Below, piece by piece: positions 2,140-8,193 of a stretch of 35,396 nt of DNA. The number at the start of each line of letters is the position of its first letter. Within the stretch, counting starts at the first letter, position 1. The translations under genes were made by a program, and so were the position numbers. The stretch is from a virus, in the IMG/VR virus record IMGVR_UViG_3300020416_000026, positions 1-35,396 of that record. One strand, given 5' to 3'. The notes under the pieces are model-generated. The model ran no database searches. It had not been told where the DNA came from and was given only the letters and a program-made list of their open reading frames with translations.

Positions 2140-3736
2140 CCACAAAGAATGTCCTGCTGCTGATTGTGATAGCAGTGATGCTTTCTCATACAACTCAGAA
2201 ACCTTGGCAGGTAAGTGTCATTCTTGCAACAGGGTATACCCAAGAGAAATGAAAGACCTTGACATTTGGGCAGAAGAAGAGTATCCAACTTATCAAAGCA
2301 AGAAGGAAGCATGGGAAATGCAACAACAAGAATCAAATGTCACGGAGTTTGTCAAGCCTATGCACATGGCATACCGTGGCATCACCAAAGAAACTATGGA
2401 GTTCTACGACTGTAAGACTTTCATAGATGGGAAGGGTGAACCAGTACGACAAGAGTACATCTACCCTTCGGGTGGTGTGAAGGTCAGGCAACTACCAAAG
2501 ACATTCAGTGCTAGGAATCTAAAGACTGATGAGTTGTTTGGTATGAACCTATGGAACAGTGGCACAAGCAAGATCATCACGATCACAGAGGGTGAGCTAG
2601 ATGCTATGTCAGCATACCAGATGCTACACAATCCTAAGTTCGACAACCCTGTCGTGTCGTTGCCATCGTCAACACCATCGCACAAGCTTTGGGAAAAGAT
2701 AAACAAGTTCCTGTCTTCCTTCGACAAGATAGTATTGTCTATCGAACATGATGACCAAGGCAACTCAGTGTCAGCAAAGATAGCAAGCCTGTACCCTAAC
2801 AAGGTCTACCGCATGGAGCTTGACAAGTACAAGGATGCTAACGAGTTCCTGCAAGAGGGTCACGCCAAGACATTCAAGTCAGCGTGGTTCAATGCTAGGA
2901 AGTATACACCTGCTAACATACTGAATACACCTGATCAATTCCTTGGGTTGTACAACAGATCAGAGAACCACATCTACGTAGAGACAGGGGTGCAGGAGTT
3001 TGATGAGATGTGCCTAGGTTTGATGCAAGGACACTTCACCCTGTTCAAAGCACAGACAGGCATAGGCAAGACAGAGTTCATGCGTTACCTTGAGTACAGG
3101 ATACTCAGTCAATACCCTGACATAAAGATAGCTACATGGCACATGGAAGAGACTAAACTACGGTCTATACTTGGCTTGGTATCCTACGAAGTGGGTGACA
3201 ACCTGACACGCAAGGACTTGATAGAGGACAAGAACGCTGACAGTCTGGTACAACAGGCCATCACTAAGCTAACCAAAGACGAGAGACTATACCAGTTCTT
3301 CCTCAATGATGAGGACGATCCGCTTGACTTACTATCACAGATCAGGTATCTGTCTCAAGCGTGTGATGTAAACTACGTGTTCTTCGAACCTATCCAAGAC
3401 ATATCTGCCAACGCAGGTACAGAGGATAGCAAGGAGCAGTTCTTAGCTGACCTGTCAGTCAGGCTATCCAAGCTTGCGGCAGAGTTGGGTGTAGGTATTG
3501 TTACCATAGGACACACTAACGATGACGGTCAGGTAAAATACTGTCGTATGATTGAGCAACGTGCCTCAGTTGTAGTTGATCTACAGCGTGACAAGATGTC
3601 AGAGGACAGAGAAGAGAGGAACACAACCAAGCTACTAGTGACAAAGAACAGACCAGTAGGTCCAACAGGATACGCAGGGCAACTACAGTTTGACCCTGAC
3701 TCCTTTACATTGAAAGAAAAGTATGCAGTATATTGA
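2126..3736 (+). CDS. primase-helicase (T7 gp4-like, TOPRIM plus DnaB/RecA-type helicase)
   Basis: The 536-residue product fits a bifunctional replication primase and 5'-3' helicase. The order is a zinc motif C9-x4-C14...C31-x2-C34, then a TOPRIM core with TEGELDA (E155) and IEHDDQG (E207-x-D209), then helicase Walker A AQTGIGKT (309-316). Next are the catalytic-Glu segment WHMEET, a Walker B-like strand VNYVFFEP, the switch segment TIGHTND and a VVDLQRD segment where T7 has its arginine finger. Compared with T7 gp4, two acidic residues are Glu rather than Asp: one in TOPRIM and one in Walker B. It probably forms the replisome with the split polymerase and SSB just downstream. It is slightly shorter than T7 gp4 (566 aa). 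Confidence 0.93.
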   Translation: MTWISHKECPAADCDSSDAFSYNSETLAGKCHSCNRVYPREMKDLDIWAEEEYPTYQSKKEAWEMQQQESNVTEFVKPMHMAYRGITKETMEFYDCKTFIDGKGEPVRQEYIYPSGGVKVRQLPKTFSARNLKTDELFGMNLWNSGTSKIITITEGELDAMSAYQMLHNPKFDNPVVSLPSSTPSHKLWEKINKFLSSFDKIVLSIEHDDQGNSVSAKIASLYPNKVYRMELDKYKDANEFLQEGHAKTFKSAWFNARKYTPANILNTPDQFLGLYNRSENHIYVETGVQEFDEMCLGLMQGHFTLFKAQTGIGKTEFMRYLEYRILSQYPDIKIATWHMEETKLRSILGLVSYEVGDNLTRKDLIEDKNADSLVQQAITKLTKDERLYQFFLNDEDDPLDLLSQIRYLSQACDVNYVFFEPIQDISANAGTEDSKEQFLADLSVRLSKLAAELGVGIVTIGHTNDDGQVKYCRMIEQRASVVVDLQRDKMSEDREERNTTKLLVTKNRPVGPTGYAGQLQFDPDSFTLKEKYAVY

Positions 3737-3935
3737 TCCATACGCTGCCTTTGCAGCAGTAATATATTTCTTTGGCGTGTTCTTGTATTACGTACACGTC
3801 AAGACTATATTCTATTTTTTAGAGAAGCCGCATGAGATGCACTTCGGAAGAGTTATCTTCAGTAGTTTACTGTGGATATTCAACGTAGTAATGCTTATGT
3901 GGGTAGAGTTTACAGGAGAAGATGATGACAGATAA
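3723..3935 (+). CDS. small membrane protein, two predicted transmembrane segments, 70 aa
   Basis: ATG 3723 lies inside the end of the helicase gene. Two hydrophobic stretches are visible: residues about 7-32 (YAAFAAVIYFFGVFLYYVHV) and about 44-62 (VIFSSLLWIFNVVMLMWVEF). An acidic tail (EDDDR) follows. It overlaps both the helicase and the polymerase gene, so it must be co-translated with the replication proteins. A membrane role in replication or a superinfection or lysis function is possible, but nothing in the sequence decides this. Confidence 0.6.
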   Translation: MQYIDPYAAFAAVIYFFGVFLYYVHVKTIFYFLEKPHEMHFGRVIFSSLLWIFNVVMLMWVEFTGEDDDR

Positions 3936-4827
3936 GATCGTTGCAATGGACATCGAGACAGAATCATTGACTCCTGAAAAGATTTGGTGTATCTGTGCAG
4001 AAGATGTGCAGACAGGCGAGAAGGAACACTTCGTTCACCTAACAACAATACAAGAAGAGAAGGAGAGGTTCATTGAGTACTGTAGTAGATACGATAGGTT
4101 TATATTTCACAATGGAATCTGTTTTGATGTTCCTATTATTAATCGCCTTATAAAGAAAGACTTGATACCCTTGGAGTCAGTCATCGACACACTGATTGTC
4201 AGTAGACTGGTTGACTTTGACCTCAAGCATGGTCATGGCCTCAAGGCTTGGGGTATCAGGCTAGGTAACTTCAAGATGGACTTCTCAGACTTCTCTATGT
4301 TGTCAGATGAGATGATTAAGTATTGTCATCAGGACGTTACAGTTACATTAAGAGTGTACGATAAGTTCAAGAAAGTAATACATGATACTGATTGGCAGTG
4401 GGCCATACAGTGTGAACATGACATACAAATACTGTGTCAGACCATGACAGACAATGGCTTCTACTTCAACAAGGCTAAGGCTGAAGAGTTACTTGATGAG
4501 ATAGAACAACGTAAGGCACACCTTGAGGATGCTTTCCAAGAGGACTTCCCACCCAAGCTAGAGGAAGTCAATCGTATAAAGTACAGAAAGAAAGCTGACG
4601 GTACACTGTACAGTAACGTGACCAACGCACAAAAGAAACACGCTAAGACAGTAGTAGACTGGTCAAAGCAAGAGCCTGAGCTAGTATGCTACGACTTCAT
4701 AGACTTCAACCCTGCCTCACCCAAGATGCGGATAGAAAGATTGTGGGATGCAGGATGGAAACCCTTTGAGAAAACGAAAGGACATATAGACTATGAAAGA
4801 CAGTCAGCTAGAACTTTTCGTACATAA
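3925..4827 (+). CDS. DNA polymerase family A, N-terminal 3'-5' exonuclease fragment
   Basis: About 300 residues carry the proofreading exonuclease of a T7-like family A polymerase. Exo I is MDIETE (Asp-x-Glu, about residues 9-11), Exo II is HNGICFDVP, and Exo III is YCHQDVT. The part after it (FNPASPKMRIERLWDAGWKP) is the usual linker before the polymerase domain. The frame then breaks: the last nine residues (RQSARTFRT) come from an inserted gene, and the polymerase continues as a separate ORF at 5211. I prefer ATG 3925 to ATG 3922 because AGGAG at 3914-3918 is better spaced. The fragment has no palm or fingers and probably pairs with the downstream piece. Confidence 0.9.
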   Translation: MTDKIVAMDIETESLTPEKIWCICAEDVQTGEKEHFVHLTTIQEEKERFIEYCSRYDRFIFHNGICFDVPIINRLIKKDLIPLESVIDTLIVSRLVDFDLKHGHGLKAWGIRLGNFKMDFSDFSMLSDEMIKYCHQDVTVTLRVYDKFKKVIHDTDWQWAIQCEHDIQILCQTMTDNGFYFNKAKAEELLDEIEQRKAHLEDAFQEDFPPKLEEVNRIKYRKKADGTLYSNVTNAQKKHAKTVVDWSKQEPELVCYDFIDFNPASPKMRIERLWDAGWKPFEKTKGHIDYERQSARTFRT

Positions 4828-5230
4828 AGATGAGGTTGATAATGTGTATGGTTGTAGTACAAAAGTGTGCTCTCAATGTCGTAAAGAAAAACCTGCTACC
4901 ACTGAGTACTTTACAAGTAATGTAAATAACAAAGGAGTGCATGATAGATTAAAACATATATGTAAATCTTGTGTGTCTTTAAACAGCAGAATAGTACGTG
5001 AATTAAGAAAGACCGCACCACCTGTTCCTGAAAATTGTGATGTTTGTGGTGGTAGTCTATCAAAACTACCTAGCAGAGAGATTCATTTAGATCATTGTAG
5101 AAAAACTGAAACATTTAGAGGATGGTTGTGTAAAAATTGTAATGTGGGTATAGGTATGTTAGGTGATGATTCTGAAGGTGTAGAGAAAGCATTTGAATAC
5201 TTAAAAAAACATGAGGAAGAAAATGGATGA
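4793..5230 (+). CDS. endonuclease VII-like HNH (beta-beta-alpha-metal) nuclease inserted in the polymerase gene
   Basis: The 145 residues show an N-terminal zinc ribbon (C26-x2-C29...C57-x2-C60). After it comes an endonuclease VII-type domain with C82-x2-C85, the catalytic IHLDHCRKT segment (D100-H101), FRGWLCKNCN (C113-x2-C116) and GIGMLGD. Such free-standing nucleases act as Holliday-junction resolvases or homing endonucleases. Its ATG lies inside the end of the exonuclease fragment and its stop lies inside the start of the polymerase fragment, so it separates the two. Its base use differs from its flanks: 16 of 60 bases are G/C at 4921-4980, against 31 of 60 at 5341-5400. This suggests recent transfer. 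A homing role is inferred from position and family. Confidence 0.88.
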   Translation: MKDSQLELFVHKDEVDNVYGCSTKVCSQCRKEKPATTEYFTSNVNNKGVHDRLKHICKSCVSLNSRIVRELRKTAPPVPENCDVCGGSLSKLPSREIHLDHCRKTETFRGWLCKNCNVGIGMLGDDSEGVEKAFEYLKKHEEENG

Positions 5231-6239
5231 ACGAGGACAGAAGTTTGCTAAGTTCGGATGGACTTTATCTGAGGCAAACCTTAACACACTACCTGAGACA
5301 GCACCTGCAGGAGGCAAACGTCTAGCTGAGTGGTTGACACTTGAAGGTAGGCGATCCTCACTAGTGGAGTGGCTAGGGCATTGTGGTGACGATTCACGTA
5401 TACACGGTAGCTTTACACACGTTGGTGCATGGACAGGTAGGATGGCACACAGAAATCCTAACCAAGCTAACATCCCTGCACAGTTTCACGGTGATGCCGT
5501 TACTGCAGTGGAGAAGGTTAAGGATAGATACGATGGGCAACTACGTGAGCTATGGTGTGTACCCAAAGGCTGTTACTTGGTAGGTACAGACGCTGAGGGT
5601 ATTCAGTTACGTGTACTCGCACACCTGATGAAGTCAGAGGAATACGTACACGCTATCGTGTCAGGCAAGAAGGAAGATGAGACAGACATACACAACCTCA
5701 ACCGTAAGGCTCTAGGTATGTCACACGTTACTAGAGATATGGCTAAGACTTTTATCTATGCGTTCCTACTAGGTGCAGGTAATGCCAAGGTAGCACAGAT
5801 ACTCAAGGTCAACCAGAAAGAAGCAAAGCAAGCAGTTGAAAACTTTATGCAATCAATTCAAGGACTTGCTGAGTTAAAGAAAAAGATTATACCACACATA
5901 GCTAAACGTGGGTGGTTCAGAGGTCTTGATGGACGTAAGGTTGTAGTACCTTCAGAGCACAAGACACTAGCAGGTATGCTTCAGAATGGTGAGTCAACCA
6001 TAATGAAACATTCAGCACTCGATTGGGTACACAAAGCTAAGAGACAGTTCCTTGAGTTCAAGCTTGTGACGTGGCCTCACGATGAGTGGCAAACAGAAGT
6101 GCGTGGGCAGATGAAAGATGCTGAACTACTAGGTAAGATACAAAGGCAATCTATTGTTGACACTGGTGAAAAGTTTGGTATGATCTGTCCACTCGCAGGG
6201 TCAACTGACATAGGATATAATTGGAAGGATACTCATTAG
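5211..6239 (+). CDS. DNA polymerase family A, C-terminal polymerase fragment
   Basis: The 342 residues carry the polymerase domain. Motif A is VGTDAEGIQLR (D127). Motif B is RDMAKTFIYAFLLGAG (R175, K179, Y183). Motif C is PHDEWQ (H290-D291-E292). Y183 aligns with T7 Y526 (E. coli Pol I residue 762), and L187 sits where T7 has Y530. The segment GRMAHRNPNQANIPA is the usual template/primer-binding motif. No exonuclease is present; that lies in the fragment ending at 4827. A second ATG at 5223 (MDERGQKF) has GAGGAAG just upstream and may be the true start. Both starts lie inside the endonuclease reading frame. Confidence 0.92.
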   Translation: MRKKMDERGQKFAKFGWTLSEANLNTLPETAPAGGKRLAEWLTLEGRRSSLVEWLGHCGDDSRIHGSFTHVGAWTGRMAHRNPNQANIPAQFHGDAVTAVEKVKDRYDGQLRELWCVPKGCYLVGTDAEGIQLRVLAHLMKSEEYVHAIVSGKKEDETDIHNLNRKALGMSHVTRDMAKTFIYAFLLGAGNAKVAQILKVNQKEAKQAVENFMQSIQGLAELKKKIIPHIAKRGWFRGLDGRKVVVPSEHKTLAGMLQNGESTIMKHSALDWVHKAKRQFLEFKLVTWPHDEWQTEVRGQMKDAELLGKIQRQSIVDTGEKFGMICPLAGSTDIGYNWKDTH

Positions 6240-6343
6240 TGTTAGGATCAGTACTATTTGCGTTATCTCCTGTCATTTTTTGCTTGACATTGGAGTTAAT
6301 TACCTATATGTTGAAAAAACGAATCAGTAAAGAGGAGCTATAA
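6239..6343 (+). CDS. 34-aa single-span membrane micro-protein (GTG start)
   Basis: A frame starts at the GTG overlapping the polymerase stop (TAGTG, 6237-6241), with GGAAGGA at 6223-6229 as ribosome site. It ends with TAA immediately before the SSB-candidate ATG. The product begins MLGSVLFALSPVIFCLTLEL and continues ITYMLKKRISKEEL. This is one transmembrane segment followed by a basic, then acidic tail, so positive-inside rules would place the C-terminus in the cytoplasm. Exact tiling between two genes and the ribosome site support it. No homologue is recognised. Confidence 0.5.
   Translation: MLGSVLFALSPVIFCLTLELITYMLKKRISKEEL
6284..6312 (+). promoter_or_regulatory. candidate sigma-70-like promoter before the SSB gene
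   Basis: TTGACA (6284-6289) is a perfect -35 box. With a 17-base spacer it is followed by TATGTT (6307-6312), which matches four of six bases of the -10 consensus. It lies 32 bases before the SSB-candidate ATG and inside the 34-aa micro-ORF, so it could boost an abundantly needed ssDNA-binding protein. This is a consensus match by eye only. Confidence 0.3.
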
Positions 6344-7143: not shown

Positions 7144-7822
7144 TGGTGATCCGTTCGCTTATCGTGCAGCTTTCTCTTGTGTAGATGAAGAGACAGAGGC
7201 AGCAGTAGAAAAGATTGATGAGCTACTAGAGACTGCACTTGAGGCAGTGCTATGGGAAGTAACTGATGACAAGTATCAGATATTCCTGACAGGTAAAGGC
7301 AACTTCAGAAAGAAGATTGCTGTCACCAGAGAATACAAAGGTAACAGGAAACAAGAAAGACCTGCACACCTTGGTGATATTAGACAACACCTGATCGACA
7401 ACTGGAAAGCTATTGTGTCCAAGGATGAAGAGGCTGATGACCTTATAGGTATATGGTCTAACCCTGAGAGCATTGTCATATCAATAGACAAGGATATGCT
7501 ACAGCTACCATGCACACACTACAACCCACATAGACGTACTTGGAAAACTGTTGAAGAGTTTGATGGACTCAAGTTCTTTTACAAGCAGATACTGACAGGA
7601 GACTCAGCAGATAACATACAAGGTATCTATGGCGTTGGTCCTAAGAAAGCTGACAAGATACTAGCTGACTGCAAGACAGAACAAGACTTGTATCAGGAGT
7701 GTGTCAGAGCCTACGGTGGTGATGAAGACAGAGTTATTGAGAACGGTAAACTACTTTGGTTACGAAGAGAAGAAGAACAGATATGGCAACCACCCAAGTT
7801 CACAGATTCAGATCAGGACTAG
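7109..7822 (+). CDS. 5'-3' exonuclease (FEN/T7 gp6-like)
   Basis: The GTG start at 7109 has AGAAGGA (7095-7100) at good spacing and places VDGDPFAYR at residues 11-19. The 237-residue protein shows the metal-binding acidic pattern of the flap and 5'-exonuclease family: VDGD, EEADDLIG, SIDKDMLQL and GDSADNI. The helix-hairpin-helix GVGPKKADKIL follows. In T7-like phages such an enzyme degrades host DNA for dNTPs and removes RNA primers. Its end overlaps the endonuclease I gene by 40 bases. Confidence 0.9.
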   Translation: MPKNENLQILVDGDPFAYRAAFSCVDEETEAAVEKIDELLETALEAVLWEVTDDKYQIFLTGKGNFRKKIAVTREYKGNRKQERPAHLGDIRQHLIDNWKAIVSKDEEADDLIGIWSNPESIVISIDKDMLQLPCTHYNPHRRTWKTVEEFDGLKFFYKQILTGDSADNIQGIYGVGPKKADKILADCKTEQDLYQECVRAYGGDEDRVIENGKLLWLRREEEQIWQPPKFTDSDQD

Positions 7823-8193
7823 AAGAGCGTAACGCTAAGTACCTTACAAAGAAACGTGTCAAGTTTGAGTACGAGACACTAAAGGTACAGTGGCGTGACA
7901 TGAGAGTAAGAAAGTATACCCCTGACTTTATCCTACCCAACGGTATCATAGTTGAGACTAAGGGTAGGTTTACTCTACCTGACAGGAACAAACACAAGTG
8001 GATACAAGAGCTACACCCTGAGCTTGACATAAGGTTTGTCTTTAGTAATCCATACCAGAGACTAAACAAGGGTGCAAAGAGTACCTACGCAGACTGGTGT
8101 GACTATCATGGCTTCTTATTTGCTAAAGAAATAATACCACATGATTGGGTAAAAGAGAAAAAAAAGAAAATATGCTTGAACAAGGTACTCTAA
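7783..8193 (+). CDS. endonuclease I (T7 gp3-like Holliday-junction resolvase)
   Basis: I chose ATG 7783 because the protein then begins MATTQVHRFRSGLEERNAKY, matching T7 endonuclease I from its FRSGLE segment. The catalytic set is complete: E14 (T7 E20), D48 in YTPDFILPNG (T7 D55), and E58 and K60 in VETKGRF (T7 E65 and K67). HPELDIRFVFSN and IIPHDWVKE also match T7. At 136 residues it is close to T7's 149. It cuts branched DNA and contributes to host-DNA breakdown. The in-frame TTG 7756 is less likely as a start. Confidence 0.93.
   Translation: MATTQVHRFRSGLEERNAKYLTKKRVKFEYETLKVQWRDMRVRKYTPDFILPNGIIVETKGRFTLPDRNKHKWIQELHPELDIRFVFSNPYQRLNKGAKSTYADWCDYHGFLFAKEIIPHDWVKEKKKKICLNKVL

Follow-up and report, generated by a model that had tools for sequence, protein, structure and literature searches.

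The DNA polymerase of the virus studied here is very probably an enzyme of two polypeptides, whose gene was split in the ancestor of its clade at a turn of the thumb, whose overlap between the exonuclease (exo) and polymerase (pol) halves was later entered by homing-type nuclease genes, and whose halves reassemble. The gene lies in a stretch of 35,396 nucleotides (the window), taken from the IMG/VR record IMGVR_UViG_3300020416_000026. An earlier note on this DNA had proposed a Family A polymerase in pieces with a free-standing nuclease at the junction, and this part of its interpretation stands; its view that the Endonuclease VII-type (EndoVII) nuclease broke the window's polymerase is not supported, since alleles split without a nuclease are found widely, the sister group of the window's clade among them. 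Intact, split and empty, split with a nuclease, and split and separated alleles were found at one site in one phage group, some of them in near-identical backgrounds, and with this series the sequence of events, how far the enzyme tolerates fission and how homing nucleases are exchanged can be tested in the isolates CRP-4 (intact), CRP-5 and ICBM2 (both split).

Three overlapping genes and the position of the break

The 35 kb virus record has genes for a primase-helicase, an exonuclease, an endonuclease I and a ribonucleotide reductase on the + strand and virion genes on the - strand, and its polymerase is the T7-type Family A enzyme of a cobavirus-like (Veravirus-like) marine phage. The N-terminal half (3922-4827, 301 aa; PF01612 DNA_pol_A_exo1, 8.6e-9; phrog_17, 1.1e-50) comprises the 3'-5' exonuclease and the first part of the thumb, and the C-terminal half (open reading frame 5211-6239, 342 aa; PF00476 DNA_pol_A, 1.2e-33) the rest of the thumb, the palm and the fingers. 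In the exo/pol junction lies a free-standing EndoVII-type gene, an HNH nuclease with zinc-binding cysteines (4793-5230, 145 aa; PF02945 Endonuclease_7, 9.3e-13; phrog_2633, 9e-21). All three are overlapping genes on the + strand, each in a different frame; their coordinates and Pfam families, as well as the overlap of the nuclease start and stop with one polymerase half each, agree with the earlier note. The translations contain DIE, HNG..FD and Y..QD in the exo half and TDAEG, RDMAKTFIY and HDE (motifs A, B and C) in the pol half, the key residues of which are invariant among intact relatives, while the nuclease carries LDHC..GWLCKNCN, a recognised domain with catalytic residues.

The nuclease overlaps the exo half by 35 nt (4793-4827). 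Its tATG, in the +1 frame relative to exo, corresponds to the pol start of split alleles that have nothing at the junction (empty alleles), and the Shine-Dalgarno-like AAAGGA ahead of it (4777-4782) is the sequence that precedes the pol start in those alleles. The window's own pol half most likely begins at 5223 (ATGGATGA, behind a Shine-Dalgarno-like GAGGAAG at 5213-5219), giving a gene of 5223-6239, and not at 5211, because ATGGATGAA(C/A)GA is common to most alleles with an insert (filled alleles) and the ATG at 5211 is not. The GAGGAAG lies within the nuclease C-terminus (..HEEENG*) and is kept in other EndoVII alleles. At the right border, ATGGATGAACGAGGA (5223-5237), the TGA stop of the nuclease overlaps the pol start; the same border is common to unrelated inserts in relatives. 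The insert has a G+C content of 34.0%, the exo half 42.0% and the pol half 45.6%, the insert core is within the lowest 5% of 300-base windows, and the counts reported earlier (16/60 at 4921-4980 and 31/60 at 5341-5400) are exact. An assembly error is ruled out by the same arrangement in two other metagenome assemblies, whose contigs share 99.96% and 99.86% identity with the window over 2801 bp.

T7-like polymerase genes can contain group I introns with HNH nucleases (Pf-WMP3, PMC3428280), yet it is scarcely conceivable that a group I or II intron or an intein restores a continuous polymerase here. A Rfam search of positions 3900-6300 with E up to 5 returned no RNA family or intron, its sole match being a chance snoRNA, the insert is almost wholly coding, and alleles without any insert are themselves split. 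An intein is ruled out by the three different frames, with their stop/start overlaps and no in-frame insertion, so that the earlier exclusion of both elements is upheld.

Judging from substitution rates, both halves are under strong purifying selection and appear to be retained as working genes. Median dN/dS was 0.157 (exo) and 0.109 (pol) in empty alleles, 0.098 and 0.080 in filled alleles, and 0.117 and 0.083 in intact alleles; conservation of both halves is thus borne out, the values in split alleles (0.08-0.16) being as in intact ones. A decayed polymerase is ruled out by the low ratios in both halves. The nucleases evolve faster than the polymerase halves (median 0.42 for EndoVII inserts), and given this higher ratio some EndoVII inserts may be decaying or diversifying.

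The break had been thought to fall exactly between the proofreading and polymerase domains, but alignment with T7 polymerase and a model of an intact relative, L175, both place it inside the thumb. The predicted structure of L175 (mean pLDDT 89, pTM 0.82) has only T7 DNA polymerase among its best PDB matches (TM 0.74-0.78 by query). In this model the break falls at residues 292-295, in the turn that joins the short helices 283-291 and 296-305, with helix 264-273 preceding and the long helix 323-347 following; as modelled, then, it belongs to a turn of the thumb, some 140 residues beyond the exonuclease/polymerase boundary. By sequence the break follows T7 residue ~354 (1skr chain numbering; FNPSS..GWVPTKYTDKG), which we take, from the domain layout of T7 polymerase, to lie in the thumb and not at the exonuclease/polymerase boundary. 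It presumably also matches the thumb tip of the Klenow fragment, which tolerates change. For split-enzyme studies it is useful that this Family A polymerase is divided, by nature, in the thumb that grips the DNA.

Split alleles and the order of events

In the closest isolates, CRP-5 and ICBM2 (Zobellviridae, Veravirus), the polymerase is two genes with the same break site and nothing between them. By tblastn the window's exo half is 63% identical to the exonuclease half of CRP-5 and 56% to that of ICBM2; the pol half is 81% and 76% identical to their polymerase halves. CRP-4, CRP-9 and CRP-13 have a single intact polymerase gene. Phage T5S1-k141_653015 has its halves 2.7 kb apart, separated by the primase-helicase, and in relatives of this type the distance is 0.3-3 kb, often likewise with the primase-helicase in the gap. 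The exo half of T5S1-type genomes ends shortly after KTKGH and the pol half begins just before YGW; the break is therefore in the same linker and, with other genes intervening, the two polypeptides must there be made separately. T5S1-type genomes (L006, L099-L106) also have many small tandem ORFs ending in P(K/L)EF(L/M/F), an ending that seems imposed by an embedded Shine-Dalgarno sequence (AAGGAG) and by the overlap of the stop with the start of the following gene.

Our survey of IMG/VR and phage records yielded 270 distinct polymerase alleles with both halves present, of which 126 were intact, 95 split and empty, 40 split with an insert and 9 split with the halves apart, counts that depend on the queries chosen in a similarity-led survey and are not a census. 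Uninterrupted alleles are accordingly at hand, and the window's ORFs match consecutive parts of one protein. Empty split alleles are colinear with the intact linker (KTKGHI..R..EK..F..YGW), from which a simple indel may be read as the origin of the empty form; they read the pol half in the +1 frame, from an ATG inside the overlap, 17-56 nt ahead of the exo stop. Those closest to the window share 91-92% pol identity with it. In another set of empty split alleles (L344-L369) the exo half is mostly nearer the intact type and the pol half nearer the split type, which suggests recombination at the junction.

The same +1 relation is kept in 71/71 of the empty alleles analysed, as would be expected if a programmed ribosomal frameshift still yielded full-length polymerase and the split were only apparent. 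We regard this as very unlikely: a start codon behind an SD-like sequence (mostly AAAGG) is conserved for the pol half in all 71 of these alleles as well, and inspection of the overlap by eye recognised no canonical slippery site. Moreover, a nuclease (filled alleles) or whole genes (T5S1-type) can lie between the halves, and fusion by a single frameshift is therefore impossible in those alleles.

Trees built without the junction columns place the window in a clade of filled alleles only, with sister rows that are split and empty, both inside a clade of 41 split rows whose basal members, L162 and L177, are empty. At least 10 changes of insert state are forced on the tree, and parsimony gives a slight edge to an ancestor of the split clade that was empty (10 vs 12 steps). 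Taken together, tree and parsimony indicate that in the window's lineage the nuclease most likely entered a gene that was already split. A single origin of all local splits except that of L176 was not rejected (p-AU 0.749), and several independent frameshift origins within the group are therefore not claimed. The preference for an empty ancestor is small, and a very old nuclease may have made the first split and later been lost.

It could also be argued that insertion of the nuclease itself split an intact polymerase in the window's lineage, the empty split alleles being the scars of nucleases since lost. Comparison of L176 with L175 reveals just such an insertion in a polymerase that is otherwise intact, and the right border common to unrelated inserts points the same way, as it implies that the filled alleles are historically linked. 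Yet nothing is inserted in L162, L177 or the sister group of the window's clade, an empty ancestor saves 2 steps under parsimony, and empty junctions are colinear with intact linkers and bear no visible scars, so we consider this course quite unlikely. That nuclease insertion splits an intact polymerase, as the earlier note held, hence most likely does not apply to the window's lineage but apparently does to that of L176.

In L176 an HNH_3-type nuclease lies in a polymerase that is intact in its sister L175 and in about 40 other relatives. We compared the nuclease cassette (L176 1990-2660) with the intact relative (L175 3770-3890) and with a donor-like relative (L371 4001-4366). Beside the insert, the DNA of L176 is 94% and 96.4% identical to that of L175 on the two sides. 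The right flank is identical from GAACGAG on; to the left, in this one contig, a tract of about 32 nt that differs from L175 and contains the split-type tATG, possibly a trace of co-conversion, gives way to identity again. The nuclease of L371, which stands in a split-type background, has 91.6% DNA identity to that of L176 over 367 nt. This pattern may reflect homing that carried the nuclease from a split donor to an intact recipient, and L176, a single contig, would then be a recent gene fission, a split caught in the act.

For an ancestor that was split and empty, as we prefer, the following course may be proposed. The exo frame would have met a stop, and a new ATG in the +1 frame, behind an AAAGG Shine-Dalgarno sequence, would have started the pol half; the resulting exo/pol overlap could then have become a landing site for free-standing nuclease genes of the homing type. 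In the window an EndoVII-type gene would have entered this overlap, taken the polymerase's start codon and ribosome site, and ended the exo frame a few codons further on, while its own end would have supplied a new Shine-Dalgarno sequence and ATGGATGA for the polymerase. All three genes would thereby stay translationally coupled. The two halves would most likely come together again through the thumb as a functional proofreading polymerase, and purifying selection on both is consistent with their forming one enzyme.

Exchangeable nucleases at the junction

The junction is a landing site for exchangeable nucleases, and as such is new. At least six kinds of nuclease were found there (EndoVII, GIY-YIG, HNH_3 and three other HNH types), with all inserts lying within about 30 nt. 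Among the 40 filled alleles there were 20 with EndoVII, 5 with HNH_3/AP2-like nucleases, 5 with an HNH nuclease of phrog_1035, 4 with GIY-YIG/T5orf172, 4 with a short HNH nuclease with a helix-turn-helix, 1 with an HNH nuclease of phrog_36777, and L084; EndoVII alleles outside the motif pattern were assigned by tblastn, and L015 by Pfam. Most inserts take the former polymerase ATG as their own start (MKDSQ/MTEN..), and many, though unrelated, have their end on ATGGATGAA(C/A)GA, where the polymerase now begins. Some junctions are more complex: between its polymerase halves L279 (3996-4998) has the HNH nuclease gene of phrog_1035 followed in tandem by a second, different one, and in L157 (2080-2500) and L074 (1600-2014) a copy of GATCGTGGAGATA stands on either side of the HNH and helix-turn-helix insert, as though the target had undergone duplication.

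The nuclease varies far more than the site it occupies. Relatives have at the same site either an EndoVII of 31-100% amino acid identity or a nuclease of another kind, and the window's nuclease, used as a query against viral contigs, matched only two near-identical contigs and three distant ones. Phages with flanks of 90-97% identity are differently filled, as in the window compared with L022 (GIY-YIG), L049 (HNH_3) and L036 (phrog_1035), in L052 compared with L063 and in L082 compared with L084. Near-isogenic pairs of empty and filled alleles also occur (L055 with L054 and L053; L076 with L074; L140/L163 with L157; L083 with L270). Across the site as a whole, therefore, close relatives show the presence/absence polymorphism at one position by which homing endonucleases are recognised. 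These comparisons suggest that the inserts move by homing, in which case the nuclease would cut the empty allele.

An ordinary phage recombination nuclease might instead have been placed at the junction by illegitimate recombination. EndoVII genes do adjoin intact polymerases in CRP-6 (L007), in the cyanophages L008-L009 and in L097, and the window already has an endonuclease I resolvase (7756-8193), which makes the EndoVII gene dispensable whether or not it is a homing element. Against such an origin, which seems to us unlikely, the same 30 nt hold five other kinds of nuclease, gained or lost between near-identical phages, and the only non-nuclease occupant is that of one allele, L084; the pattern is that of homing elements. 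The L084 insert (3186-3807) consists of two ORFs of no known family, and the 97% identical L082 has an HNH_3 nuclease in its place. Whether the thumb turn is, more broadly, a fission-tolerant dock through which unrelated nucleases rotate, with homing converting intact genes (L176) so that fission spreads horizontally as a selfish trait, is a proposal for and against which we see even odds.

Relation to other divided phage genes

Nucleases that change places near essential phage genes have been described in general terms (PMC10448857). A few T4-like phages are known to have replication enzymes whose parts are separated by a nuclease gene. The ribonucleotide reductase of phage Aeh1 is encoded by genes in pieces, NrdA-a/mobE/NrdA-b (reviewed in PMC2988022). 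As in the window, a free-standing HNH nuclease lies between two ORFs that form one essential replication enzyme, with no intron, although enzyme and phage family differ; in the window's group, unlike Aeh1, most relatives are split without a nuclease and the site hosts many nuclease kinds. A split replicative polymerase is known from the Aeromonas phages 25 and 44RR, where the T4-like gene 43 (PolB) is divided into 43A and 43B, with a nuclease in one phage and none in the other, and where 43A and 43B co-purify and are active (PMC2988022). That polymerase is of Family B whereas the window's is of Family A, and the review left open whether the nuclease split gene 43 or entered a gene already split (PMC2988022); for the window's lineage that order can be addressed with a large series of alleles, and another lineage shows insertion into an otherwise intact gene. 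The group also shows in nature how a selfish gene can dismantle a gene without killing the virus.

CRP-5 and vB_LenP_ICBM2 (Zobellviridae, Cobavirinae, Veravirus) have the same break as the window, entered in GenBank as two genes, but no junction nuclease. Term searches of PMC6918029 and PMC6775973 gave no mention of this split, and no description of it in cobaviruses was found in the open-access literature searched. The cyanopodoviruses S-SRP01 (L011) and WH11-B (L012) resemble the window in having a T7-type exonuclease and a polymerase annotated separately, with an EndoVII gene nearby, but their break comes directly behind the exonuclease domain (171 aa), with the EndoVII gene downstream of the polymerase. 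In the OM43 phages MEP401 and MEP402 a Zobellviridae Family A polymerase occupies two ORFs, for which an intron was suggested (PMC10580990). Like the window, these phages have a small ORF between the polymerase ORFs, in their case one of no known family; they differ in having the break some 390 aa in, inside the polymerase domain. The MEP401 allele in our survey (L298, 1112-3222) accordingly has its split elsewhere, in the polymerase domain, and its two parts are separated by a 77-aa ORF of unknown kind.
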